Assembly: GCA_033819885.1 (NCBI GenBank)
Contig: JAQYUZ010000047.1
Span: 62,001-126,000 of the forward strand
Direction: 5' to 3'
DNA from: Microbotryomycetes sp. JL201
Lineage: Eukaryota; Basidiomycota; Microbotryomycetes
Length of the DNA stretch: 64,000 nucleotides
Below, piece after piece: positions 20,401-39,558 of this stretch. Position 1 is the stretch's first letter; the number at the start of each line of letters is the position of its first letter. A model generated the notes under the pieces. That model did not search any database. It was not told the origin of the DNA and was given only the letters and a program-made list of their open reading frames with translations. Position numbers and translations under genes: made by a program.

Positions 20401-21639
20401 CGATGATGCTGTTGCCGCCTTGTTCAACGAAGAGCTTGGTGCCGTGTTCCAAGTTCGACAGGCTGACGCTGCGACGTTTACTCAATTGTTTGTTCGACAA
20501 GGAGTGCCTGCGACGTCGATCTATCCAATTGGCCTCGTCGGATCGGACCGGGTGGATCAGTCAATCAGCATCGCTTCGGGTGGCGCCATGCTGTGGTCGA
20601 GCACAAGAGGCGAGTTGCAGCAAGCGTGGGCCGAGACTTCATACAAGATGCAATCCTTGCGCGACAGTCCGAAAGGAGCAAAGGAAGAGTTTGACAACAT
20701 TGTCGACGAGCGCAATACAGGTTTGACCTACAGGTTGACGTTTGATCCCAAAGAGAATGTGGCGCAACCTTTCTTGGCAAAGCAAACTAGTTTGGACGCT
20801 CGACCGAAAGTGGCCATCTTGCGCGAGCAAGGTGTCAACGGTCATGTCGAGATGGCTTGGTCGTTCCATGCCGCCGGTTTTGAGGCCGTCGACGTTCACA
20901 TGTCGGACATCATCAGTGGACGCGTCTCGCTTGACGATTTCAAAGGACTGGCCGCTTGCGGTGGCTTTTCGTACGGCGACGTGTTGGGCGCTGGCAACGG
21001 ATGGGCAAAGTCAATCTTGTTGCACGACGGTGCTCGCAAGCAGTTTTCAGACTTTTTCCAGACTCGTCAAGACACGTTTGCATTGGCCGTCTGCAACGGT
21101 TGTCAGTTGTTCAGTCAACTGAAAGAGGTGATTCCTGGCGCCGAAGAGTGGCCCTTGTTCAAGCAAAACTTGTCGGGTCGGTTCGAAGGCCGTGTCTCAT
21201 TGGTTAAAATTGATGACGAGACGGACGACTCGGTGTTTTTGAGAGGCATGCACGGGTCAGTGTTGCCCGTCGCTGTAGCGCACGGTGAAGGTCGGGCAGC
21301 GTTCATCAATAGTGAGCACCTCGAGCGAAGTCTGCTGCTTGGCGATTCTGACGATAACAATTTGTAGGCACCTCGGCATCATCGAAAACGGTCTGCTTGC
21401 GTTACGTTGACCCGGAAGGCGAGAGAACTGAGCGGTATCCGTACAACCCGAACGGCTCGCCAGAGGGTGTCACGGGCGTCAAGGCGCTCGACGGTCGCGT
21501 GTTTGCGCTCATGCCTCACCCTGAACGAGTCACACAACTCATGTCCAACAGCTGGGTCGAGCCTGGTGCAAAGGACAAGTGGCAACGCCGTGGACCTTGG
21601 ATGCGATTGTTTGAGAATGCAAGGGCATGGGTCGGTTAA
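17459..21639 (+). CDS. ADE6: Phosphoribosylformylglycinamidine synthase (FGAM synthase)
   Basis: Fourth step of de novo purine synthesis: converts FGAR plus glutamine and ATP to FGAM, in the cytosol. Two exons, 17459-21311 and 21368-21639, give 1374 residues, the normal size for the single-chain eukaryotic PurL. Landmarks in order: N-terminal domain starting [33 protein letters not shown] (about 249); [20 protein letters not shown] (about 333), followed by [14 protein letters not shown]; a second AIRS-like half with [11 protein letters not shown] and [11 protein letters not shown]; then the glutaminase domain with nucleophile Cys in [11 protein letters not shown] (about 1210) and the His-Glu pair in LMPHPERV (about 1333). 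Only one short intron, near the end, is unusual for this intron-rich window. Confidence 0.97.
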
Positions 21640-21709
21640 GGATAGACAAGTGTGCATCGGGTTTTGTTTCCAAGCTACGTGATCTTGAAAAAGAAAGAGT
21701 CATTGTTCT

Positions 21710-22620
21710 TTATTTGAGGCTTTTGATGAACTCGAGAGCGTTGGTTGGGTCGTCTGCCGGCTTGACGCCAATCTTGGCCTCGAGCAGCTTGCCGCCCTTT
21801 TCAATGACCCAGTGGCATCGCCTGTCCAGCTCACTGTCAGCAATACGGCATTGACCGAAGAGAGGCCCATCCAAGCAACAAACTTTTTCGCCTCTGTGGC
21901 ACCTAGCTGCTTCAACAAGGCGCGGTCCGGATCGCACAAAAAGCTGTACTGCAAGTTTTTCGACGTTTTCCAACTCATTTGCGCCTTGGGTTTGTCCTGA
22001 GACAGGCCGACGACGTTGAAGCCTTGGTCCTTGATGTCGTCGTAGATGTCACGATACCCGCACGCCTGATTCGTGCAGCCAGGCGTGCTGGCTTTGGGGT
22101 AAGAGAAGATGACGAGTCTGTGGGAGTGCGAGCGCGCGCGCGGATAACATGTCAAAACTCGGCCCCACTTGAACACAATATGTGTGGGGGGGCGAAGGGG
22201 ATCGGCAAAGTTGACTGACCCGGATTCGTTATAGAGTGAAGCGAGAGACGTGTCCTTGTCGTCCTCTGCGGCGCGGTATGAGCTCAATCAATGTCACAAG
22301 CAAGTGTGTGCGCGTGCATGCTCACCGTTCTTCAAAGTGATGTCTGGCACAACGTCCCCGACGCTCAACACGCCGCCGTTTGTCTTTGGCTTTTTCGCTG
22401 CAGGCTCGTCCGTGTTTTCGTTCTTGGTCTTTGATTGAGCGGCCTCTGCCTTGCTGGTCGGTGCAGGCTTGCCCTTGCTTGCTGGCTTTGATGACGCGCT
22501 CGCCGCCGCGGCCTTGTCGCTCGTCGCCGTCGACGCTGTCGTAGCAGCACGCGATGACCGGCGCGGTCCGTCTTCAGCCTTTGTCTCGTCGGCTGCCGTG
22601 TCCTTGCGCTTAGGCGGCAT
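21710..22620 (-). CDS. DOT5: Nuclear-type thiol peroxidase (BCP/PrxQ, Dot5-like)
   Basis: Reduces peroxides with a reactive Cys. Exons 22620-22326, 22265-22220, 22117-21884 and 21821-21710 give 228 residues. The first 95 residues are Lys/Ala/Ser-rich, begin MPPKRKD and include KKPKTNGG, a plausible nuclear localisation region as in yeast Dot5. The peroxiredoxin fold follows: SVGDVVPDITLKN, LVIFSYPKASTPGCTNQACG with peroxidatic and resolving Cys five residues apart (PrxQ pattern), then GYRDIYDDIKDQGFNVVGLS. The last splice joins EAKK to RCHWVIEKGGKLLEAKIGV, which restores the strand seen in homologues. Convergent with the FGAM synthase gene, 70 bp apart. Confidence 0.9.
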
Positions 22621-22891
22621 CGTGTGAAGCAAAAAGCGACGAGTGATCGCCGCCTGCGCGTTCAACGATCGGCACAATTTAATTTACAAGTCGGAGAGCA
22701 GGGTGTATGTGATCATTCGCACGTACATGTCATTAATGCAAGCTCTGTCTTGTACGGCCATGGGCACCGCATGGCTCAATGAAAGGAGCTAAATCAGCAA
22801 GCGCCGCGGAGATATCGATAATGCCCGGAAATTCGAATTTCAGACGCTGGGGCTCATGTGTTCGTGTTCCTGCTCTCTCGCCTCGGTCAAG

Positions 22892-24369
22892 ATGCCAGAA
22901 ATCGGTGACGAAACCGATCGAGAGGCGGCGTTCCAAGTGCAAGCATGGTTGAAAGCGTTTGGTCTGAGACAGCTTTTCGGAAGTCGGAAAGAGTTGTGTC
23001 CAAGATTTTGGCAAAAGTTGGGCTACGAGGCGCTGCCGTTGCGATCAGAAAGCCAGTCAAAACAATTCAAATCGGTGATCAACGGATTTTTCGCGCGGTA
23101 CGAGTCACCACCCAATGACGCGCGAGCCAAGTCGTCGCAAGAAGCATTTTGGAAGCTTGACGCCGTGCTTGAGGTGCGCAGGCGCTACCGGCACTGGTAT
23201 TGACAGTCAGGTGCCACGCTCAAGTTGCATTCATCAGCTCACAGGGCAGCACTTTGAGGAGTGTGAGCTGACAAGCTGAAGAGGTCTTGGCCAGTTGACC
23301 CACAAGCGCCGGTTTGACCGTAAAGTCGCTCAAGGATCACCTGCTCGATAACAAAGTATACTCGGCTCGTTACATGGAGTCCATCTTCAAGGTCAAAGAC
23401 AACCAATTGACGACCTTGTCAAGCTTCATCAACATAATCGTCCGTGCTGCTTTCTCTAACGGCGCGAGTCTCTCAAACGAACAACAAGCACTGCGACATG
23501 CCTGCTGATACAAGGGCCTAGCTCTGCAGCACGAGACTTGGTATACTGCTGTCGCTCAAAGAATGCCGGGGGCGCCCTCACTGGAAGAAGTACAGGAAGC
23601 GCGCCGAGGATTGGGCCGAGTTCGGGATCTTGCGAATACTCCTGAAAGGGCGCACAAGGCGAATCCAAGCGACAGGAACACGATGGAGGTGCTTCGGGCT
23701 GAAGAACAGTGCTTTGACATGTGGTCAAGCGTGATTGGCCGAACGGGCGCACTATTTCCGCCAACGGATTGCAGTGATTCCTGTCATTGCTGACTCGGTG
23801 TGTGCTGTACTTGATTGCGTCATATGGATCAAGCAAAACCAACGACCCGACAAGAAAGATCACGCCTGGCTCGATACGGTCATCAGGGTCATATTTGCAT
23901 ACGAACCCGAGCAAAAGTCATGGGCCTCGGGAAGCGCATCGAATCATCAAAATCTTACAAACCAAACTTGCGCGTCCTGTTTCCCCTTCCAAACGTTCCT
24001 TCGCTGATCATGTTGGATCCAGTGAATGAAGCTTTGCGCGCGCTATGTCCGAATCAACCTACGCTGTTCAAGCGGTTGGTCCACCTCGGACGAGCAGAAA
24101 ATTTTCGTACGCGAATCTTGACATGTCTGTAACTGACAACGCTGACAGGCTATTCACAGTTAGCTTGGTCGAGGAAAAACTCACCAAAAGTCGACTTAAA
24201 CAAGCAAATCTTACCGCTCTAGGGGCACTCTATTCACCGCCCCTATCATCATGCTGATAGCCTGTCTATGCGCAGGACCTATCTCTTGGGCAGCGCCGAC
24301 GCTATTTCAAAAACGCTCAAGAGGTCAAAGGCTCAAGAGGTCAAAGGCTGGCAGCAACAATGGCTCTGA
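22892..24369 (+). pseudogene. WQQW-family copy 1, decayed
   Basis: Same exon plan as the intact copies but broken. Block A (22892-23173) is whole: MPEIGDETDREAAFQVQAWL, then LRQLFGSRKELCPRFWQKLG. The 25-nt exon is present (23238-23262). Exon 3 (23321-23463) has exactly the 143-nt length of copies 2 and 4, but the bases before it read CG instead of AG. Exon 4 (23515-23962) needs a +1 shift near 23755-23770 to run from FDMWSSVIGRTGALF into SVCAVLDCVIWIKQ, and ends at LTN without a GT donor. The last exon has a 16-bp tandem duplication that shifts the conserved WQQQWL terminus out of frame. Probably not translated into a full protein. Confidence 0.75.
24315..24346 (+). repeat. 16-bp exact tandem duplication in the last exon of WQQW copy 1
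   Basis: GCTCAAGAGGTCAAAG occurs twice, head to tail (24315-24330 and 24331-24346). Without one unit the exon would be 78 nt, the same as in copy 2, and would end in the family's WQQQWL motif plus stop. With both units the frame is shifted. Confidence 0.95.
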
Positions 24370-24599
24370 TCTGGAGAAGAGAAAGCCGTCAGTCATCTAG
24401 CCAAGCGTCTTTTCGTTTGCAACCCAAACTTGCTCGTCTTAAAGCCGGCAACTTCTGTCAGGAGCTGCTATTAGCACAGCGTCGCGGAATGCTCGTTCAA
24501 CTGTTTGCTCGCTCACAAACTGTCTCCTTTCGACTTGACTTGCCTTCAGACTCGGTGAGCCTGCCTCACCAATTGTTCATCTATCCGTAGAAGAGACAC

Positions 24600-26120
24600 A
24601 TGTCAACAACGCCGCCAGACACGTCCGATCGTATTGGTCTCGCGTGGGCAAGTGTCTGGATTTTCCGACAGCTTTTCGACGTCGAATTGGGCTTTTACTT
24701 AGAGTTCTGGCAGAGGCTCGGATTTGAAAAGCCTACGACGGCGTCTGAGGCTCGCCCGGGTCACAATGGTGACTGGGCAACACGCCAACGAGTGTACGCG
24801 GAGGCGGTGAACAAAATTTTGGCAGCATACGAAGGCGATCGTTCTAGAGCAGCTTTTCGAAGAGAGCAAAGCGTGTGGTCGTCAACGCATGTTCGTGAGG
24901 TATGTGACTCTGTGTGACTGACGCTTCCAATCCTCACGTTTACTTCGACAGCTCACCGGAATTCATTTGACACAATGTACGCATCCTATCCAAAAACCGC
25001 GATGCCATGCTTATGTAGAATAGTGTCGCAGTGAAAAACCTTGCGCACCATCTTGTCTCGTCCGGGCGGGCGAGCTTGGAACGCGTTCAGTCTAAATTCA
25101 TCATTGAAAACGATCAGCTTGTCAGTCTCGGCCCGTTTCTCAAATTGCTCTTCACAATTGCCTTTCCAAACATGGCGAGTGGTTTATAACCTGGAAACCC
25201 GTCAAAGTTGCTCAACAAAGCTTTCTCAGCTCGATTCTTGGCCTCACACTGCGTCACAAAGATCGCATGCCACTCCTGAGCAACTCGTTCGGGCTGCCAG
25301 AGGTCTGAACCGTGTAGAAAAGCTTCTGGACAGCCCTGGAGCACTCAGCCGTACTGGAACGGACCAGCATGATCGTCGATCACAGCTCTTGCTCTGGTCC
25401 GGCCTCTTTGACCAATGGGTAGCAGTGCTGTCTCGTAATGGAGCAAGGGATGGTCGTGGACGGCTCAACTCACTCACCCCGCCAGTCAAGCAGGCTGCAG
25501 CTCTTGCGCGCTGCCTGCTTTGGACCTTGAAAGAACAGTCGCACGAGGACAAAGACTACGCATGGACGGGGATCGTTCTCAGCTTGCTTTTTGCGTACGA
25601 CCCAAATCGCTCCAAGTCGAACGAACCAGCTCGATTCATGACCTTGACGAACGTGAGCACGTTCTCGAAACACTTGGCGCAATTCTACTAATCTCTTATT
25701 CTGCGTAATCCAGCACGATCGTACGTATTCACCCACCTGTTGTCCCAGCAATCAAGCCAGACAATGCTTACTAAATCTATTTAGTCAACCAAGCACTGCT
25801 TGCTCTTTGTCCGCAAGAAGATGACATGGTCAGACGTCTAGTTCGACTTGGTCAGGCGGCGGACTTTGGTCAGCTCGAATTGTGCTTCTAATCTGCCCTG
25901 AAGCGTTGCTGACTTTTGTCTCCTGGATCAGTGAAAGAGGTAGAAAAGAATTTTGTGGAACATCAAAAGGGTCAAATCGCGGGAGTCAGTGGTTTGGGAT
26001 GGCTTTGCTTTGGTATCAACTGACACCTTGTTTCCCAATCAGGAACTGTCTTTGGGACAGCAGCGTCGCTATTTCAGGAGCACCGGAGACCTTGAGCGCT
26101 GGCCTCAGCAATGGCTTTGA
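24600..26120 (+). CDS. WQQW-family copy 2, intact; unknown function
   Basis: Not recognised as any described family. Eight exons (24600-24899, 24952-24976, 25032-25174, 25221-25652, 25714-25720, 25785-25868, 25932-25984, 26043-26120) give 373 residues. Block A has FRQLFDVELGFYLEFWQRLG. Block B has LKNLAHHLVSSGRASLERVQ. Block C/D has EQLVRAARGLNRVEKLLDSP and AWTGIVLSLLFAYDPNRS. Block E has NQALLALCPQEDDMVRRLVR. The C-terminus is GQQRRYFRSTGDLERWPQQW plus Leu and stop. Intron 3 needs a GC donor (GCGAGT at 25175). The fifth exon is 7 nt. No signal peptide or membrane segment; probably a soluble helical protein. Confidence 0.72.
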
Positions 26121-26378
26121 AATTTGATCTGACGCTTCCGTTCACGGCCACTCCTAATATTAATAATTGCAAACACTTCTGCTTCTCAAGCCCTTCGAAT
26201 ACTGTTCGAGGAACAGTATCGGCATAGAAATGGGATGTAAAGAGCACAAGTGATCCTGGACTGAGAATATTGAGGAAAACCGCAGCAGGGCTCAGGAGTC
26301 GAGGCTTCGTTCTCCCGCGGAGTCCGATGAAAGCTCAGTTCTGCTTGGCATACGATTCTTTACCTCTGCTGCACTTCC
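26121..26378. other. Short gap between WQQW copies 2 and 3
   Basis: About 260 bp, AT-richer than its surroundings. No gene seen; presumably the terminator of copy 2 and promoter of copy 3. Confidence 0.5.
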
Positions 26379-28041
26379 ATGGTTCGCTCATTGTACCAAA
26401 AGGAGGCGACAGAGGCTCGAAATTGGACCAGACTCGTCACTTTTCGAGAGCTTTTTGGTCCAATCAAAGACTGCACGGGCTTTTTACGAGATCGCCTCGG
26501 ATTCGGACGTCAGATCGACGTTCAAGAGGGATACGACCAAGCTCTCGAGCGAGTCACCGTCTCTTACATGGCGGCAAGCGCTCCCACTGCTGCGAATCGC
26601 TACTCCCTGCAAGATTCGGCGTACGATCATGCTGTTGTGGGAAAGGTAGAGAGACGTGACTGCGTGATCAATTCGGGCCAACATTGATTTAATCACGTTT
26701 GCAACAGCTGTTCAAGCTGCATGAGGCAGACTGTAAGCTGCTTGCGTCATTTCACCGGAGAACGATACTCTTCACGAATGAATAAATGATGCGCGCATTC
26801 TCAGTGATCCGCTTGCAACATCATTTGGGAGGGGCCGTCACAGCACACGTTAGCAGCAACACAAATTCAAACCTGCATTTCATCGCCGGTGTCTTTGACA
26901 AAGCGTTTCCGAACTTTGTAAGCAGAGAGTCAGGCTCTGAAAAGCGAATTTTGGAACTAAACGAATTCTTGATTACTAGCACGACTCTTGGAAATTCTCT
27001 TCGAGCTCGGAGCAAGCCGAGCAATTACTTGACATTGGGCAAGTGGCAACAGAAAAGGTTCAGGTCGCCCAGGCTGGGCTGCTCAGCCTGCTGCGGCTTC
27101 TGAGGGCTCCTCTTGATCTTGAAGAGCGCACTCAGCTACCTCGGAGCGCGGAAAGCTCAGCTCGACTCGTGGAGCTCGAGAAACGCAAGGCAATTCATGC
27201 AAAGCTGGCTAGCGCACTCACCTTCCGAGGTCAAAGCGGCATCAATAAGTTGAAACGCTTGGTACCGATTGTCCACGCTGCATGGGCGCTTGTCGCCTGT
27301 GCTACCCGGTCAGATCCGGCTTCATCAACAGTGAAGGACCATCTTGCGAAAGAAAATTTGGACAGCACATGGCTTCCATCGGTTTACCGAATGATATTCA
27401 GCTACAGCAAGGAGGGCAGAAGCAACTTTCGTAAATGGACACTTGCAAATGTAAGAGTCCCGTACATGTTGACAATGACCAAGCTGACGGGCGCGCGTGA
27501 GGTTGAAGAATCAGTGTGCGTAGCTCGGAGCTTGCAGAAACAGAAGAAGTTGACGACCACTGTTTGCGCAGTGAATGCTGTCCTTGAAGTGCTCTGTCCT
27601 TCAGAGCTGACAATGTACGCTCGACTCGTTCATCTAGGCTCGATGGAAGACTTTTGTGAGTGGGCAAGAAACATTTGCTCATTGCGGGTTCTCAGTGTCA
27701 AAGACTTTAGTCAGCAAAGTGGTCCAAAACATTGAAACATACGACGAAGCTCGTCGCGCTGAATATATTCCAGTCACTTGTGAGCGAGAAAGCCTTAGAA
27801 ACCCGGAGCTAGCAGCGGCTGACTCGCTCCAAGACCATCGTCGTCCTAACCCTTACAGAAATCGCTCCCCTACTCCTGATCGACAGCGTTCGTCTTCCCC
27901 TCCGCCTGAAGAGCCGGTGAGCTCGGTGGTTGCATCGAGTGCTCTATTGTTGACTGACGTAGAGAGCAGGCCCTTAGCTTTGGCCAGCAACGGCGCTACA
28001 ATATCAAGGATGTCGAGGAGTGGCGCCAGCAATGGATCTGA
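26379..28041 (+). CDS. WQQW-family copy 3, intact; unknown function
   Basis: Paralogue of the copy at 24600. Exons 26379-26645, 26708-26732 (25 nt), 26805-26917, 26980-27450, 27484-27496 (13 nt), 27572-27655, 27696-27916 and 27970-28041 give 421 residues. Block A: FRELFGPIKDCTGFLRDRLG. Block B is shortened and ends VFDKAFPNF. Block C starts HDSWKFSSSSEQAEQLLDIG. Block D: SVYRMIFSYSKEGRSNFRKW. Block E: NAVLEVLCPSELTMYARLVH. Exon 7 is longer than in copy 2 and adds an Arg/Pro/Ser-rich linker (NRSPTPDRQRSSSPPPEEP). The end is GQQRRYNIKDVEEWRQQWI. All splice sites are GT-AG. Sequence identity to copy 2 is modest, so the duplication is not recent. Confidence 0.72.
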
Positions 28042-28712
28042 GCAGGTCGCGAGAGGATTTGCAAATGCCATCGCACGGGGGGGAGACCGAATGTCACAGG
28101 ATGACCTTCTCATAGAAGGCATTACTAACAGTCATTCCGGAGAATGTGTAAATGAGAAGCTTCTTCCTGTCCCGCGGAAATACAAGGTTGCAAGGCTCGT
28201 ATCCGTGGTTTCGAAATGGCCGCGATCGTCGCGATCGTCTTGCTATGCATCTGAAGAGTGGCAGCAACGGCGCGCTCAAGCTACGCTGATTGTCAAGTCT
28301 GATCAACGGCTCAATCGGTCGTTTGCTTGTTTGCGAACAGGCGGCGTCGGGCGAGCACTCACGCGATCATCGACTGTGCTAAGCTTTGAGGGGCGCAGAG
28401 ACGCCGGAAACGGCAGAGTACATTCAAACACCGACAACGACTGGCTGGGACTACATGCAAGCCCGAATTTGGGCGAATTTCTGCGGCGAGAGCCAGCTGT
28501 ACCCGATCGAGTTCGGGCTCGTGTTGCTGCTCGTGTTGCTCGTACAGCTGGGAGACGGCCTGTGATGGCGCGATATATTTTTCGCGCCGGGCGTAAGCGA
28601 TAGCTTGTTCGGGCACATGTGACTGCCGAGCCGAGCACGGGCCCGGTTGCTGATTCAGCAAAGCTTTCTTGAGTTTGGCACACTGCCTGTACTTTGGCAC
28701 GACACGGCAAGA
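28042..28712. other. Intergenic region, no gene seen
   Basis: About 670 bp between WQQW copy 3 and the old yellow enzyme gene. The plus frame stays open for much of it, and contains CYASEEWQQRRAQ near 28240-28275, faintly like the family's C-terminus, but no surrounding block matches. Confidence 0.45.
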
Positions 28713-30093
<1,381 letters not shown>

Positions 30094-30418
30094 TGCAGTT
30101 CATTGCGGCGTTTATCCAGTCTGTTTCATTTTGCATGGGCCGAACACGCTATGTTCCGTGAGCAAGGTCAAGAAGTGACATCTCAACCCAACTTTTGCAA
30201 AAGTTGAAACTTCTCTTCAGGAGTGGCACATGCCACTTCTTTCGACGTAAGCAGACCTTGTGTTGACTTGTAGCCCATGAGCTTGTTCTTCAGGGTCGGC
30301 AGGGTTTTCTATCGGCGCTAAGCGTCAGGAGCCACGTTCTCGGAGTGCACCTAATAACCGCGGTCAGCTTCTTCACTGGTCTCGAAAAAGTACAGCGCTA
30401 CGAGACGCTGCTTTCGTC
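30094..30418. other. Intergenic region, no gene seen
   Basis: About 325 bp between the old yellow enzyme stop and the WQQW copy 4 start. No coding or RNA feature recognised. Confidence 0.5.
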
Positions 30419-31885
30419 ATGGTCGAGCCGCGTGGTTCGACCGACCCATGGGTGGCAATCGCTTTCCAACAGGCGCGGCTGTTTGCCCTGGCTTTCGTCT
30501 TTACTCAAGTTGTGGGAGACAAAGGGCACCGTCAACAGTCGTTCTGGACATTGATAGGTCACAACATGTGGGACAAGGTCCAAAAGGTTCCAACAGACGG
30601 CATGACACTCTCGTGCGAGGTTGCGTTTGCTTCGCTCGTGAGAACTTTGTCATCAGCCAGGGCCAATGGCACAAATTGGGCGGTCCGGGACTCGACAAAG
30701 TGGAAGAACTTGACGGTTCAGGTGGGCAATTTTTGATTTCTTGAATCGGTCTACGACGTGTTTGAAAAGGCTCGAGCCGTGTGCAAGTTGCTTTTAACTG
30801 TCCAGCCGTGCTTTCTTGCTGATGGCCGAGAACGTTTATCAGTTCAAGAACTGGAGATTATCTTACAACATCCAAGAGAGCAGCAGTCTCGGTTGCCTGC
30901 GACGTTTGCACAGTGCCGGGCTGAGCGAGGTCAAACGCTTCGCCGCCTGCTAGAATCTGTATTCGACAAGGCTTTTCCGTACCAGGTAATCTACAGGACC
31001 GGCACGTGAGGTCACCAGCAATGGAAATGTACGGCGCTCAATTTGCAGCGCGAGAGGTGGCGGTCCGTCTGAAGCTCAGTGCAACCGACTTGCGGCCGAT
31101 GACAAAGACTGACGCTGTACACCTTTTGCGCGGTCTGGAGCGGATGAGTCTGATTTATAATCCGAGACACGTTCAGTACGACGCAGCAGTCCCTACGCAC
31201 GTGCAAAAGGATCGCGACGCTCTCCGGGTGGTTCTGGGGGACTACGTGTACGCCATTCTAACAAACCACGTCCTTAAGCGTCAACGTGACCGCTTCAGAT
31301 TCGACGATGGGAAAAAGGCGCAGCTCGGTATGGTATTCACGTCAACTTGCAACCTGTTGAGAATCAGCCTTCAAGCGTACGAATCAGAGACCAACTTTTT
31401 TTCGAAAGAGCTTATCGGCGCCATGTGGACGTGCATAGCAACAAACCTTCACGCCGCACCGGATCAGAGTTCACTCCACAATGTGTGTCTTTACGGTGGT
31501 CGGAGCGATTGTCAGACGCTCATTACCTTGCGCAACTCCCTCTCAGGGTCACTGTGAGCTCGTGGTCTTGGTCAGGTCGTGGAACGTTGACGATTTGCCT
31601 CGTGCAAGGTGCGGTCCTTGTTGACATCCTGAGCGCGCAAGAGAGGATCCCAGAGACGCCTGGCAAGGACACTATTGCCAAGATTTGTAGTCTCGGCGCT
31701 TGCGACGAAGCCGAGTTTTGTGAGCTTTCTGCCCAGTATGCACTAGTTTGGCTCACTTTGCGCTCGCAGGGGAACGCATGCGGTACATCATGCTCACGCA
31801 TGTCGCTTTTGTGTCAAGTCGTCAAATGGCGAGATACAACATTCGAAATGTGGAACAGTGGCGTCAGCGTTGGGTGCAGGATTAA
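30419..31885 (+). CDS. WQQW-family copy 4, intact; unknown function
   Basis: Exons 30419-30721, 30770-30782 (13 nt), 30843-30985, 31057-31482, 31547-31553 (7 nt), 31609-31719 and 31770-31885 give 372 residues. Block A: QQARLFALAFVFTQVVGDKG, then QSFWTLIGHNM. Block B: QELEIILQHPREQQSRLPAT, ending VFDKAFPYQ. Block C: TDAVHLLRGLERMSLIYNP. Block E: AVLVDILSAQERI, then TIAKICSLGACDEAEF. C-terminus MARYNIRNVEQWRQRWVQD. The last two exons of copies 2 and 3 are one exon here, as in copy 5. Intron 2 needs a GC donor (GCAAGT at 30783); the acceptor of intron 3 (GAGAG at 31052-31056) is weak but keeps frame. The stop lies one base from the stop of the convergent BolA gene. Confidence 0.68.
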
Positions 31886-31886
31886 T

Positions 31887-32397
31887 CTATTCGGCGGAAG
31901 TCTTGAGCTGCGTCATGGACTCTTGTTCAGTAATGCACCTTTTATGGTTTGGGGCAGGCATGGTAGACTGACCTGCAGTCCGTGCATGTCCTTGATCTCG
32001 TCTTTGAGCAGCTCGTTGACGAGTCTGTGCTGTTTCATTTTTGTCAAGCCTTTGAATGAGGGATGGGATATCGAGATGGCATAAAATGACCCGCATCCGC
32101 CTGATTGCGAGCATACAGTGTACATCAGCCTGGCGTTCGCAGAGCGAGAGCCGTCGACTTGCCGGACACGTCCTGCACCTGGACCTTAGCGCCGGCGAGC
32201 TCGCCCTCGAGCTTTGACTTGAGTAGCCGTTCGCCGTCCGTCAGCTGCGAGTCTTGCGATGCTGGTGCGGCAGTCGACTGTCGACGGAGGCCAATCACGG
32301 CTCTCGGAGATTGCCACAACGTTGCGGCACGGGCACGGGCGGGTGTGGGTCTCGGCACAGTTGCCAGCAGTCTGAAGGCGGTTCTTGCTGCCGCCAT
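31887..32397 (-). CDS. Mitochondrial BolA-like protein
   Basis: BolA proteins work with monothiol glutaredoxins in Fe-S cluster delivery; this one is probably mitochondrial. Exons 32397-32163, 32100-31973 and 31907-31887 give 127 residues. The N-terminus is Arg/Ala-rich and acid-poor (MAAARTAFRLLATVPRPTPA), a good presequence. The BolA fold follows: LLKSKLEGELAGAKVQVQDV, SGGCGSFYAISISHPSFKGL, and KQHRLVNELLKDEIKDMHGL ending LKTSAE. The first intron can only be joined in frame with a GC donor (GCAAGT, 32162-32157), because the SGGCG motif spans the junction. Divergent from COX15 with 161 bp between start codons. Confidence 0.92.
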
Positions 32398-32558
32398 GCC
32401 TGGGATGTGTCAGGGGGTGCGGGCGACGGTCGAAAAGAGGCCCGGGCGCCAAAGTCCGCCCGGCGCTTTCTGAGTCTTTGCCACACCCAACCCGCGACTT
32501 TTGAGTGCGCGTTCTCAGCGTCAACCGACGACCAAAGATCGCATCTGCCTCGCAGCCA
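32398..32558. promoter_or_regulatory. Shared bidirectional promoter region of BolA and COX15
   Basis: Only 161 bp separate the start codons of two divergent genes for mitochondrial cofactor proteins, so both promoters must overlap or be shared. No specific factor site recognised; the call is from position only. Confidence 0.55.
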
Positions 32559-34440
32559 ATGCCCCGTGCTGCCATGTCGGCGATGCTCGGGCCGCTCGCC
32601 CAATGCTCGCGATCAGCAGCCATATCCGCTCGAACACGAGCTGTGCAGGCACCCTCCGCCTTGCTCAACCTTTCCAAGAGCACGGCACTGGTATCGGCCG
32701 CCCCATCGTATCGCACTCGCTTGCAGGCGCCGACGCCGCTCGCAACCGCGTTTGCATCGTCTTCAAACCGCACATTCTCGTCGTGCACATGCCGTGACTC
32801 ACCGAACAAGTCGACCAGGCAGCCTCTGTCTGCTCTGCTGCCGTCCCAGCGTCGGGCGATCGCGGCGAGCGAGCTTCGAAGCGTGAGTATGAGCCATTCT
32901 CACTGCCGCAAGGCGGCACATTGACGACAATCCATTCTCTTACCGCGTCGCTAGTCATGCACTCGCTTCCAGTCCACCGCAGCGGCTGTGCCTCCGTCAT
33001 CGGCAGCGCAAGTGGCAAACGACACTTCTGCGTTGCATGCAGCACCAGATCCACCAGAAACGCCCTTGACGAAACCTGTTGTCGCCAAGTACCTCTTCCT
33101 CATTGCAGGGATGGTCTTTTGCATCGTCGTCGTCGGAGGAATGACACGGTTGACTGAGTCGGGCCTGTCTATCACCGAATGGAACGTCGTCAGCGGCATC
33201 AAGTACCCCTTGACGGCCGAAGCATGGGAATCGGAATTTGAAAAATACCGTGCGACTCCAGAGTGGCGCATGTAAGGCCGGCTCGGATCGAGCTTGCCAA
33301 TCGACACTGACATCGTCTGTACAGCAACAATTCCCACATCACGTTGGACGAGTTCAAACGGATCTATTTCTGGGAATGGAGCCACCGTATCTTGGGTCGT
33401 GTCATTGGTCTGACATTCCTGCTCCCGATACCGTATTTTGCCATGCGTCGCAAGCTCGGCCAGCGAGCTGCGCTCAGACTGCTCACCATTGGATCGTTGA
33501 TCGGCGCGCAAGGTGCACTTGGTTGGTACATGGTCAAGTCAGGGCTCGATGAAAAGTCAGTGCAGGACCTTGGTGGCGTTCCGCGCGTCAGCCAGTACCG
33601 TCTCGCAGCCCATCTCGGCATGGCCTTTGCCGTATTCGCTGCATGCTTGAGGTTCGGCCTCGGCGTTGGTCGTGACTGGAAAATTCTTTACGGTGGCGCC
33701 GAGAAGCAAGGTGCAGGGCTGGCCGGTCTCGCTTCCCCGGCGGAGACGATCAAGGTGCTCAATTCAAAGGCGGCAGGCAGGATGCGCGTCATTGTCACTG
33801 CTTTGACCGGACTTGTGTTCTTGACTGCCCTCTCCGGTAGGCCGGGTTTCCGGATCTCTGGAAGGCTTTCGCTGACTCAGCCTTGGCAGGCGCCTTTGTT
33901 GCTGGCCTCGATGCTGGTCTTGTCTACAACGAATTTCCTTTGATGGGCGGTCGGCTCGCTCCTCCTTCGTCAGAGCTGTTTGCCAAACATTATACTCGCA
34001 AGACAGATGGCTCAGACTGGTGGCGCAACTTTTTCGAAAATCCGACCACGACGCAATTTGATCACCGTGTTTTGGTGAGCTTCACAGTGCTCTCTGCTGA
34101 CTGTTAGCCGACTCACAGTCTTTTGTAGGCCATGACAACATTCACATCGATCGTCTCGTTGTTCCTCTTTGCTCGTCGCCCTCACATCCGCTCAGCCTTG
34201 CCACCTACGACTTTCCGCTTGATCAAAGGAACAATGCACATGTCTTTTCTTCAAGTCGCTCTCGGTATCTCTACGCTGCTTTACATGGTTCCCATTCACT
34301 TGGCAGCGACGCATCAGGCTGGTAGCTTGGTCTTGCTCAGTTTGAGCTTGGCGACAGGCGCGAGTTTAAGAAGAGTACCCAAGAGCGTTCTGAAAGAGTT
34401 GGTCAAGCTGAGGAGGATCTCGTCAAGTCAAGTGGCATAG
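32559..34440 (+). CDS. COX15: Heme A synthase, mitochondrial inner membrane
   Basis: Oxidises heme O to heme A for cytochrome oxidase. Exons 32559-32882, 32973-33271, 33325-33836, 33890-34074 and 34129-34440 give 543 residues. A long Ser/Arg-rich presequence ([20 protein letters not shown]) precedes the membrane domain. Family motifs are all present: [53 protein letters not shown], then [14 protein letters not shown] with the heme-ligand His, [30 protein letters not shown], and a late [14 protein letters not shown] with the second-half His. Eight hydrophobic segments fit the family. Convergent with WQQW copy 5. Confidence 0.96.
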
Positions 34441-34653
34441 ATCAAGATAGTGGTTTGTAACATTGCACCAATCCCAATTCCTGAACACGCCTCAGCCGGC
34501 AGACGGCCGGAAAACTGTGATGGCGCGACGAGCGGAAAAATGGCCTGGACGGAATAACGAGCTGAACGGAAAACAATCTGAAAGAAGGTTGGCTGTCCTA
34601 CTTGCAACACTCCAAAGGTTTTGTGTGTCTGTTTTTGATAGAGCGACTTCGAT

Positions 34654-36174
34654 TTAAACCCATTGCTGACGCCAACGTTTGACGTCTTGTATGTTGTACC
34701 GCTTCGATTGACGCGGCGAAAGGGAGGCTGCACTCGCCGTGCGGAGTAGAAGACTCATTTGCTGCCCTGCCAGCGTTATATCGCCTGGTTACGAATGACA
34801 GTTTATGAACCTCGAGTTTGCGCTCACAGAAATCTGGCGTAGAGTGAGAGCCAAGTTTGATGACTTGACCGACCACATCGAGATGCACGACTGTCGACTC
34901 GTTCAAACCGCCTTCGAGATGAGCAATGAGCTGTACGCCTGTAACAGCCTCGTCAGGTGAGCGAGCCAGCGATGCTCGGCGTGACAAAAAGCACTTGCAA
35001 TCTTTCTGCAACGCACTACACGCGTAAGCTTTCCAATCAATCGAAATATCGCGTATTCTCACCTGATACAAAGAGAGGTCGTTGCTCGGATGAAGCTTTT
35101 TGCCGCGCACGACATGACTCGCCGCCATTGACCACACTCCTTCGATGCACAAATTCATGAAAGGAAGCTTTTCGTGAGAGTACGTGTGATGCGTGCAAAC
35201 GAAAAGCCGCAGATACGTTGTCAAGACTTTACGTACTGTCTGCAAGTTGGGACGGGGCAGGTTTGCATGTAATTGGTCGCGGATGTGTTCTAACTTGACA
35301 AATTGGTCAGACTTGACGTGGCTGATTCGCTCGCGCATGCCAAGAGTCTGTTCCACGTCAAACTCGAGATCCAGGCTGGGGTCAACGATCTGCACGAGTC
35401 GGTGCAATCCTTTGATCATTGTTACCACTTGATCTTGATTCAACTTGATCATTGTCGCTCCGGGGCACAAGCAGGACTGACTTGTCCACCACATGCTCTG
35501 AGAATGCGCCAATGAAAGTGACGCGTTAACGATGTACACAACAAATGAGGAATAGAGCAGCACACTGACAGTCCCGGGAAGTATGTCGCAAACCGCAGCA
35601 TCAAGCAATTTGAAGAGACCCTCATATTCGTGCGCTGTAGCCGAACTCTGTCTGTACCTCGTTGGCAGGGTGAGTGGCCGGTCGTCACTGGACAGCGTGA
35701 CGCGGATTTCCTCAACTGTACGAGACGCTTTAGATGCCGGAGAAACGCCAACTTTGGGTAGAGGCTATACCATTCACATATTGGTCTGAGGGTATTAACA
35801 GCCTGCGCAGGAAGGAAAAACGATCAATTGACGTGGCTCATTTTGTGAGTCTCAGACTGGCTGACACTGAACGCTTCGTATGCATTCCAGAACTTCTTGA
35901 TGTGATCGTCAACAGTCCACAGCCCTCGGCTGTTCTGGTCCAATTTCGAGGGATCCTGCGAGATTTCGGCGGCAACCTGTGCAATTCGTAGCGATAACGA
36001 TTCGGGCCAGACCTTTTCGCTAGCGACGACTTCTGGCCAATCATCACTGACGAACAAAGGCTGCAGGATGGCGCTTCTTTCTTAGCAGATTTGCCAAAAT
36101 AGCCATACGTGGAGCGCAAAACGAGCTCTGTGCTTCGCAACTAGGAACGGAGTAGCGCTGACAACCGACGGCAT
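34654..36174 (-). pseudogene. WQQW-family copy 5, full length but with one early in-frame stop
   Basis: Exons 36174-35866, 35802-35778 (25 nt), 35715-35570, 35497-35063, 35028-35022 (7 nt), 34938-34828 and 34784-34654 join in frame; every intron is GT-AG. Codon 31 is TAA (36082-36084), inside block A: FLVAKHRARFALHVWLFWQ precedes it and ILQPLFVSDDWPEVVASEKV follows, both aligning to copy 4. The rest is open: VEEIRVTLSSDDRPLTLPTR, DQVVTMIKGLHRLVQIVDP, then IKLGSHSTPDF, and the end SKRYNIQDVKRWRQQWV. With the stop it cannot give a full protein unless there is read-through, an alternative start or a base error. It is the only copy on the minus strand. Confidence 0.7.
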
Positions 36175-36395
36175 CCCAGCGGCTGACCACTTGTCTGGTC
36201 GGAATGCAAGAATCTAGTCTGTCGCCGCTGCGGTGCGACGGTTGACACAACTTGCTCCCTCCCGCGGAATAACCCAAAGCTGTGCCGTGTCGACTCCTCG
36301 ATCTGTTGAATGAATCAGACAAAGGTGGAAGATATGAAATGCAACAGTGAAAATGTTGATCTAAATCAGATGCACATGCGAGTACCTGTCATTGT

Positions 36396-38199
36396 TCAGG
36401 AGCTGCTTCTGCCGACTCGCAGCACGGCTCTCTTCAGTCTGCATGCCCCGACTTCGTCAGCCAAGGCGGCTTGTATGGAGGAAAAGTGCCACACTCACTC
36501 ATACAGCAACACGTTCGCCCACAACCAGCTGCCAGGCACCGCATTCGGATGCAGCAAGTCTCTAAAGTGGTGCTCCTGACCAAGCATGAGCGCCCCACTT
36601 TCATCTATCCTCAGCCGTTCACCGAGTCCGAGGTCCAGACCGTCTTCATCGTCGATAGAGTCTTGCTGCAGTGACGAGATGACGGATCGGGCGAGCGAGT
36701 CCAACGCGAACACGCGCTAAAGTGTACAAAAGTCAGGCCTGCAGCAGCGTTCATGAAGACGGAAGAACCACTGACTGGGAACGGCGCGTAATTATGTCGT
36801 GGCGGATGATGCAAAGTTCTCCAGAGTATGATGGGCCCATTCTTGACGACGCCGTCATTCCTTCCCGGAAAAGCGCGAGCAATGTCTTTGATTGCTTTCC
36901 GCGCCTCGCGCTCCCACGTTGCTTCGCGTTGAGGAGACAGATTTGTGTAAGGGATGGGGGAATCTTCCGGGTATGGCCTGGACAAGTATCCCGCGGCAGT
37001 AAAGTCCTCTAGAAGCGGAAGGATTAGCTCGCATTCGGTTTAGACCGATCCAAAACAAGCCACCTTCTGTGTATTTGCGCAAATCCCAATAGCCAGAATT
37101 GATCTCGATCAGGTCCGGGTGAGCAATCTCGGGCCTATCAAAGTGCCTCGCGAGCTTTTCGAGCAAGGGCACAGTAATGTGATGCAGCCTGTCGACCCAA
37201 GTTGCTGCAAAAGGATTGATTTAGCTCAGATAAACACATTTGATTCAGAAACGCCTTACCCGGCGGATGGTACCACCGTTCCGTCTCAAAGTACTCTTCA
37301 GCACCTTGCAAGCCAAAATTGAACACGTTGACGAGTGTCGTGCCATATTCAGCGACATCACAAACCCAAGGGTTGGTCAATTCCTGTCCCTCTCGAGGTC
37401 GTCTTTCCCATCTGTCCTCTTGCTCCCGCCTTCGTCTTTTTTTTTCAATACTCTCTGCCGTCTCATCGCCCGAGGCGTCCATCTCGGCCCTCAGTTTGAG
37501 CTTGTACGGTCTCGGGGCAGCATCGTGGTCTGTCGTGACGAGCTCGAGCTTGCCGCCTACAAACTCGCAAAAATCTTTGAGGTGGTACCTGTCGATCGAG
37601 TCTCCGTGTAGTACGATGGTCTTGTTTCTGAACCAAGGGAGGAATGCGCGCTTTGGATATGTAGCTGTCAAGTCGCCTTCGTCCGGGATCAGTGGCGTGT
37701 CGTCTCCAGGTGGACGGTACAATGCGTTCAAGTAAGTGCTCGGCTTGCATCGCTTGTCATATGGTGTCCAAACATTGTCTGTCGGGCTTTGTAGGTTCAC
37801 GTGGAGCCTGCCCATTGACGCGAACGGGTCGCATCCAAACTCGGAGTCTTTGAGGCCCGAGCGCAGTGGCGGTTTGCGGTTGTGCGTTCGCCAGCCGTGC
37901 AGCTTGTTGCCAAACTGACCGCCGAGTTCATGAGCATGCTGCACAAAAGCGTGACCTGCGTTGCCGACGTGTTGTGCGTAATCATCCAGGCTGTACTGTG
38001 AGCGAGCAATGTCGTCATCGTCGCTGTCGCCAGCCGTGGACGATGGCGGTGGCCGTGACGCGAGGGCGATGACAAACAAGACTGCTGTGATGAGTGGCAG
38101 GATGACTGCTGGCCTGCGCAAGAGGGAGCGGCGAGCGGTGACGGCGCTGAGCGGAGGCTTGTCGCTCGGGTACCCGCCTAGTTTGGCATAACTAGACAT
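36396..38199 (-). CDS. SGNH/PC-esterase-like type II membrane protein (paralogue 1)
   Basis: Resembles Golgi PC-esterase-type proteins (Cas1 N-domain / TBL-like acyl-modifying enzymes); substrate unknown. Exons 38199-37260, 37204-37064, 37008-36776, 36716-36499 and 36438-36396 give 524 residues. An Arg-flanked anchor (AVILPLITAVLFVIALASR) lies at about 30-50, followed by an acidic stem. The catalytic block I is NKTIVLHGDSIDRYHLKDFC with a proper Gly-Asp-Ser. Later come DLIEINSGYWDLRKY and ILWRTLHHP, and the terminus WLWANVLLYELKRAV. It shares intron positions and all these blocks with the gene at 57111. The family name is inferred from motif pattern. Confidence 0.7.
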
Positions 38200-38653
38200 G
38201 CTTGAAAGGCAGTAGCGAGCCAGAGGCGCGAGTCAAGGGTGATGGTGCCGCTGAGCTTGAATTCAACCTATGTGCAGGTCTGTTGGGCGAGTGTTGGCTG
38301 CTGAGCCGGGAGCCCGCCGGCTGCGAAAGCCTGTAATGAGATCCACAGGCAGGTGAACGAGATAGCAGGAGCGGCAGAGCCGGACAGAATTAAAGGTGAG
38401 CCGTCACAGACGGGTCTCGGCCGGCGAGAGCTTTGCTTTGGTGCACAAGCTTGGGCCAACGCTCGAGAGGCCTGGGCTCGGCACAGTGTCGCAGTTAATC
38501 TCAGGCAGAGACTGTCCGCGGAAAGAGACGAGGCATCTTGTCAGATCCAAAGAAATAGAATTCTCGCGGGTGTGCGACACGTGTGCCAAGACAGGAGGTG
38601 TTGATCGCAAGTTGCGCGTTTGCGAAGCGTCGGCGCGTCTTGCCCAGCACACC
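38200..38653. other. Divergent intergenic region, no gene seen
   Basis: About 450 bp between the PC-esterase-like gene (leftward) and the bL12m gene (rightward). Open frames on both strands have no family resemblance. It must hold both promoters. Confidence 0.5.
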
Positions 38654-39558
38654 ATGGCTGTGAGTCTGGGCGTGACCTGAATGCATGCTTATACTTGTTG
38701 CTGACGACTGGCTGTGCCTGTCTTTGTGCCACTGCCATGTGTGCAGTTGGCGCATTTTACTCTGCGGCACGCGACATCGGCCGCTCGCGCCGCCACCAGA
38801 CCGTAAGCTGATCCTAATCTTGCTCGAATCCGATTATATTGCAATCTGACGCTGTCTTCTGTGCCCGAGCAGCGCTGTGCGATGCTTGTCGAGCTCGGCA
38901 GCACGACGAGCTTCAGCCGCCGCCGCAGACACAACACCAGCAGCAGCGGCACCGACAGCACCCCCAGCAGCAGCAACAGCATCACCTAAAATTCAACAGA
39001 TCGTTGATCAGATCTCGACACTCACCCTACTCGAGGCTGCAGACTTGGTCGAGGCGCTCAAGGCGAGTTGATATTCCACATCGTCAAGCGAGCATACGAG
39101 AGAGAGTCACGACACTGACCTCGTCACGACGTTCACAGTCAAAACTCAACATTGCAGACATTGCCCTGCCGGCAGCAGGCGCAGTCGCAGCAGCACCTGC
39201 AGCGGCAGCAGACGGAGCGGCAGCGCCTGCAGCGGAAGAGAAACCAAAAGAAAAGACAGTGTTCAACGTCACATTGCAAAAGATTGACGCCGCACAAAAG
39301 GCAAAGGCGATCAGGGAGGTCAAGGCACTCATGCCCGGAATGAACTTGGTCGAGGTATGCGCGCTGTCTGTGCAGGCTTTCCACGCACATGTAGCAAACT
39401 TCTTACGTTCTGCTCTTTCGCTCTCTTCCACTGTCTCACAGGCCAAGAAATTCGTCGAGAGCTTGCCAAAAGTTGTCAAGGAAAACGCGACAAAGGAGGA
39501 GGCCGAAAAACTCAAGGAATTGTTCAAAGGCATCGGAGCAGAGACGTCGCTCGACTGA
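38654..39558 (+). CDS. MNP1: Mitochondrial ribosomal protein bL12m
   Basis: Stalk protein of the mitochondrial large subunit that recruits translation factors. Exons 38654-38659 (only ATG GCT), 38747-38802, 38873-39062, 39139-39354 and 39442-39558 give 194 residues. Exons 1-3 build a classic presequence (MALAHFTLRHATSAARAATR, then RCLSSSAARRASA). The mature part has IQQIVDQISTLTLLEAADLV, an Ala-rich hinge, and the CTD: TVFNVTLQKIDAAQKAKAIR, EVKALMPGMNLVEAKKFVES, LPKVVKENATKEEAEKLKEL. The third intron must use a GC donor (GCGAGT at 39063), giving ALK-SKLNI as in other L12 proteins; the nearby GT breaks frame. Convergent with MRC1. Confidence 0.93.

Follow-up and report, generated by a model that had tools for sequence, protein, structure and literature searches.

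A Tandem Array of Five Paralogous Genes, Four with a Predicted 7-Nucleotide Microexon, Probably an Undescribed Family, in Microbotryomycetes sp. JL201

Introduction

What kind of protein family is encoded by the five related genes located in an array of about 13 kb (22892–36174) in the genome of Microbotryomycetes sp. JL201, and what keeps or removes its copies? The array lies in a window, the whole stretch of DNA that was analysed, of 64 kb (assembly GCA_033819885.1, contig JAQYUZ010000047.1, positions 62001–126000; genome of 17.15 Mb in 92 contigs), and all coordinates below are those of this window. A first-pass annotation had described three intact genes, one nearly whole and one decayed gene of no recognised family, products of an old, lineage-specific expansion. 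For the present study the gene models of four copies (B, C, D and E) were rebuilt from the DNA and the remaining copy (A) was read in pieces.

The overall best explanation, to which we give a probability of roughly 0.55, is a new array family of soluble helical proteins with tandem birth and death of copies and docking through the C-terminus. Its parts differ in strength. Judged from sequence comparison, an undescribed and apparently lineage-restricted family under tandem birth-and-death evolution is very probable; that the products are soluble helical docking proteins, a proposal that draws on structure models, stands at about even odds.

Results and Discussion

Homology of the Five Copies

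Pairwise local protein alignments, each compared with 300 shuffles and with reversed-sequence controls (scores of 32–45), divided the five homologous genes into two subfamilies, A/B/C and D/E. Within the subfamilies the z-scores were 64 (A–B), 29 (B–C), 24 (A–C) and 17 (D–E). Between them the values were 8.4 for C–E, 7.7 for C–D, 4.2 for B–E, 2.4 for B–D, 0.7 for A–D and −0.2 for A–E; the scores of A–D, A–E and B–D were not above the best of their own shuffles, and the C–D and C–E alignments were confined to the last 22–23 residues. Outside the C-terminus the two subfamilies are linked because the profile of B and C matched that of D and E in the exon 3–4 region (hhalign, probability 91%, E-value 1.1e-6) and because the gene structure is shared. 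These results agree with the five related genes that had been proposed. The similarity and gene structure, rather than a tree, suggest the branching order ((A,B),C) and (D,E).

The C-terminal motif RRYNIxDVExWRQQW was recovered in all five copies as described before, in a decayed form in A and lengthened to WVQD in D. The clearest part common to both subfamilies is the C-terminal block of B (GQQRRYFRSTGDLERWPQQWL-stop, 26043–26120, forward strand). The block order that had been reported as common to all copies was found in A–C but only partly in D and E: only A–C show clear blocks of the FAYDP and ALCP types, and the FW of the N-terminal FRQLF...FW block is missing in C and, in E, lies within a doubtful intron.

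Gene Models

Copy B (24600–26120, forward strand) is intact and, when spliced, open from ATG to TGA over eight exons (24600–24899, 24952–24976, 25032–25174, 25230–25652, 25714–25720, 25785–25868, 25932–25984 and 26043–26120), the fifth of which is a 7-nucleotide (nt) microexon; the product has 370 residues. Its intron 3 is of the GC-AG type, and this unusual GC donor is common to A and B. Copy C (26379–28041, forward strand), also intact, encodes 415 residues in eight exons (26379–26645, 26708–26732, 26805–26917, 26980–27450, microexon 27509–27515, 27572–27655, 27711–27916 and 27967–28041), or 414 residues with a neighbouring CAG acceptor, the last exon then starting at 27970. A Ser/Pro/Arg-rich insert is contained in its exon 7. 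An ATG ATG at 26786–26804, within intron 2 of C, is in frame into exon 3 and is possibly an alternative start or a chance occurrence.

Copy D (30419–31885, forward strand; 392 residues) has six exons at 30419–30721, 30770–30985, 31057–31482, 31547–31553 (microexon), 31609–31719 and 31770–31885. It is open only via a weak acceptor before 31057, the sequence of which (..CGCGAGAG) departs from the usual form, and the use of the consensus-like TTTGCAG acceptor there leads to stops; thus, of the three genes taken as intact, B and C stand, but D does so only with a non-consensus acceptor. Copy E (36174–34654, reverse strand; 375 residues as spliced) comprises exons 36174–36109, 36060–35866, 35802–35778, 35727–35570, 35497–35063, 35005–34999 (microexon, followed by a GC donor), 34938–34828 and 34784–34654. 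It can be called nearly whole if an extra 48-nt intron (36108–36061) is spliced out; otherwise there is an in-frame TAA at 36084–36082.

Copy A (22892–24369, forward strand) was delimited by six-frame reading, pattern positions and similarity to B. Exon 1 (22892–23173) is recognisable. It is followed by the 25-nt exon 2 (23238–23262) and by a part of exon 3 that reaches 23463, where the same type of GC donor stands (gcgagt) that B uses; exon 4 starts at 23530 and is frameshifted near 23772–23780, and an exon-6 remnant starts at about 24023. By eye, exon 4 was not seen to end in a GT donor and no microexon was recognised, and the last exon carries an exact 16-bp tandem duplication (24315–24346) ahead of the stop. 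Its assignment as a decayed gene is therefore confirmed, and a broken copy beside intact ones bears out the birth and death of paralogous copies.

Shared Exon Skeleton and Coding Constraint

Introns of B and C have identical phases (0,1,0,0,1,1,0), and the two genes possess identical 25-, 7- and 84-nt exons. The sharing of intron positions and phases that had been asserted for the whole array is complete for this pair but not for the other subfamily, since D is devoid of intron 2, and D and E of the last intron; exon 6, of 84 nt in B and C, has 111 nt in D and E. The 7-nt microexon can be accommodated in each of copies B–E, and in B it joins exon 4, which ends in phase 0, to exon 6, which starts in phase 1. 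Seven nucleotides was the sole common in-phase microexon length in these four copies, and some common right-phase length appeared in a fraction of 0.023 of 5000 trials with shuffled controls of the four regions. The common microexon lends modest extra weight to the homology of the subfamilies. In copy E a second reading of AG, 7 nt and GT lies close by.

In the 322 aligned codons of B and C, identity at codon positions 1, 2 and 3 was 0.47, 0.55 and 0.31, respectively, and in the 313 aligned codons of D and E it was 0.41, 0.50 and 0.30; therefore, the proteins were constrained while third positions came near saturation. The array proteins have been under purifying selection in the past. Comparison of four open pieces of A with B gave 0.50/0.42/0.36, 0.32/0.60/0.28, 0.37/0.49/0.38 and 0.57/0.73/0.35, position 3 being the lowest in three of the four.

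Protein Properties and Predicted Structure

Proteins B–E have isoelectric points of 8.1–9.4 and contain 7–12 tryptophans. As previously stated, no clear membrane helix was detected in B–E by hydropathy (maximum 19-residue mean 1.05–1.45), and, by the same means, no signal peptide was evident in B, C and E, D being hydrophobic at residues 21–28. Exon 4, the largest exon, was modelled for B (25230–25652, forward strand) with AlphaFold2 from a 6-row alignment as a predicted five-helix, all-helical bundle, with a predicted local distance difference test (pLDDT) value of 74 and a predicted template modelling score (pTM) of 0.63 for the best model and pLDDT values of 49–60 for the other four; no specific fold match to this bundle was obtained. 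The model of exon 1 was also all-helical, with low confidence.

Searches for Relatives

The earlier failure to recognise a family was reproduced with profile and sequence databases. Searches of proteins B–E against Pfam-A gave nothing over the curated cut-offs, with three matches at E-values of 0.25–0.28 in one protein each (the one shown among them scored 11.6 bits, where the cut-off is 27); HET, NACHT/NB-ARC and gasdermin domains were not among the Pfam matches, and NCBIfam gave no matches. For the same four spliced proteins PADLOC returned nothing of weight, the sequences of the PDB contained none below an E-value of 0.8, and PHROGs gave one weak unnamed match to one of the four. A protein database search with the B–E alignment as query gave no protein at an E-value of 10 or less among 8000 scored candidates, nor did residues 1–350 of C among 7999. 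This search was word-limited, in that several shared 5-residue words were needed, and gene models of relatives may miss microexons; as far as it could be tested in this way, the family is apparently lineage-specific, as proposed.

As a control, PurL was searched in the same protein database. Fungal PurL proteins were returned, headed by those of two close relatives, Microbotryomycetes sp. NB124-2 and Microbotryomycetes sp. JL221, with which the PurL of this genome shares 90% and 88% identity, respectively; the identity between those two is 87%. The JL201 window would therefore come from a third member of the NB124-2/JL221 clade, roughly as distant from either strain as the two are from each other. 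In PMC13413130, NB124-2 and JL221, which came from roots of sorghum and from the Cardamine hirsuta phyllosphere, are placed with Fanglaniella lipolytica. They are treated there as conspecific, and the 13% difference of their PurL proteins argues against a single species.

The lack of a detected protein, in spite of relatives with 88–90% PurL identity in the database, leans towards fast evolution of the family or missing annotation. As the same divergence among copies is expected from fast evolution as from great age, this one genome did not bear out the claim of an old expansion.

Within the genome, protein searches with B, C, D and E, carried out in six frames exon by exon and hence insensitive, gave matches to the array only, save one at an E-value of 0.9 on another contig, and each of them missed some known copies. 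The family profile, run over all reading frames of at least 20 residues in the window, found nothing convincing besides A–E (next best E-value 0.16). It found no member either in the 10 kb that precede the window or in the 4.8 kb that follow it, bases 1–52000 of the contig being left out. A genome-wide C-terminal pattern recovered all five array copies at 0–1 mismatch together with one non-member at 1 mismatch; a tighter pattern found only C and E. Another C-terminal pattern had side matches on contigs C7 and C47, against one for the reversed control. The matches of the first pattern outside the array (16) and the C7 match were rejected as members by the profile (best E-value 0.26); the C47 match was not examined.

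Proposed Origin and Function

The data can be put together in the following way. One intron-rich ancestor gene, with a skeleton that included a 25-nt exon and the 7-nt microexon, would have been duplicated in tandem, and an ancestral split would have given the A/B/C and D/E lines. Loss of copies appears to be under way, A being dead and D and E blemished. The products would be soluble all-helical proteins, basic and rich in tryptophan, that reside in the cytosol or nucleus; their conserved Trp/Arg-rich tail, RRYNIxDVExWRQQW, may dock one conserved partner, leaving the helical body freer to diverge. With less weight, the divergence of the body and the turnover of copies could reflect conflict or non-self recognition, not a housekeeping task; on the sequence data such a role is rather unlikely. 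The fullest version of this idea, new intracellular fungal conflict genes with a rigid skeleton, a docking tail and a body made unrecognisable in sister species by fast divergence, is very unlikely.

Several observations weigh against the explanation by a new array family of soluble helical proteins. Relatives below about half identity (an estimate) may have been missed in the protein database because 5-residue words were required, and diverged copies elsewhere in the genome may have been missed because the genome searches were insensitive: with B as query only A and B were found, C, D and E being unreported even at E-values up to 10. Outside the array the C-terminal pattern matched 16 times, and its reversed control 13 times. 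The gene models were read from genomic DNA alone, and in C and E the stretch formed by intron 4, microexon and intron 5 is open in frame when left unspliced, with a single open reading frame across exons 4 and 6 (26980–27732, forward strand, in C; 35764–34601, reverse strand, in E). Only B and D have stops within this stretch that make the microexon necessary; in C and E the retention of both introns would keep the frame. Codon usage was weak and, for both B and E, gave frame 1 a higher score than the coding frame, a signal that fits weak expression or decay. Finally, the joined open pieces of the decayed copy A hold one 19-residue hydrophobic stretch with a mean of 2.16.

Some of these features would also be expected if the family, useful at one time, were in terminal decay under relaxed selection, most of its copies being functionless. 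The broken copy A, the non-consensus acceptor of D, the in-frame stop of E when no new intron is assumed, the GC-AG intron of B and the weak codon usage all point that way, but B and C are open over eight exons each at about one third amino-acid identity and keep a codon-position bias of the constraint type. Neutral decay across the B–C divergence would have erased both the open frames and the bias, and terminal decay is for this reason disfavoured and judged unlikely. Kinship with a known, ancient protein family, by now beyond the reach of sequence detection, is quite unlikely; in its favour, helical bundles diverge easily and the structure models cover single exons only.

Selfish or allorecognition genes of a new type, such as spore killers or incompatibility factors, would account for the apparent lineage restriction, the tandem turnover and the strong divergence on a conserved exon skeleton, and the wtf drivers likewise hold their exon sizes as their sequences diverge, as reported in PMC9562144. 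HET/TIR, NLR and gasdermin families are described as the main reservoirs of allorecognition genes (PMC10197012), but no HET, NLR or gasdermin domain was among the matches, clear membrane segments are lacking in B–E, and nothing specific indicates killing, which makes this origin improbable. The orphan status and the basic, helical nature of the proteins could also suit a domesticated viral or transposon protein. Against this, one peptide pattern confirmed no related stretch in viral contigs, searches of limited sensitivity found no dispersed copies, no direct or inverted repeats of at least 24 nt occur in 21500–38500, and up to seven introns lie at shared positions; such a source is highly improbable.

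The new array family of soluble helical proteins, if confirmed, would be an undescribed family with an unusual gene structure, in which the shared 7-nt microexon is easily missed by standard annotation, and its five copies would offer a tractable locus for the birth and death of orphan families.

Comparison with Known Systems

Orphan tandem gene arrays are a fairly common type of locus in fungi. The present array resembles them in its tandem paralogues, lack of a detected homologue and birth and death of copies, and differs from them in general in its intron-rich conserved skeleton, the 7-nt microexon and the absence of an evident secretion signal. The kind of locus is thus ordinary for fungal genomes; what sets this array apart most is the microexon skeleton that its copies share. 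Unlike transposable elements, the family was found at a single locus in searches of limited sensitivity, in a region free of the repeats sought above. The wtf proteins are multi-pass membrane proteins, and the array products differ from them in their low hydropathy maxima (B–E, given above). The wtf genes of Schizosaccharomyces, as described in PMC9562144, are similar in being limited to one species group, in their multiple exons of kept sizes and in their pseudogenised copies; the drivers have two start sites. Clusters of genes for small secreted proteins are described from Microbotryum, a fungus of the same class (PMC4469406), and differ from the array, the products of which have 370–415 residues and no clear signal peptide.

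Array Setting

Housekeeping genes break up the array. A flavin oxidoreductase gene (PF00724, about 28726–30093, forward strand, ends placed by eye) lies between C and D, and the genes for BolA (about 31930–32400, reverse strand, start placed by eye) and COX15 (about 33311–33940, forward strand) lie between D and E. Around the array, an L7/L12 ribosomal protein gene is located at about 38818–39555 (forward strand). The sole homeodomain match found sits on a different contig. The word CTCCTGA, on either strand, was present in four of five stretches of 230–300 nt upstream of array copies, those of B, C, D and E, a weak signal.

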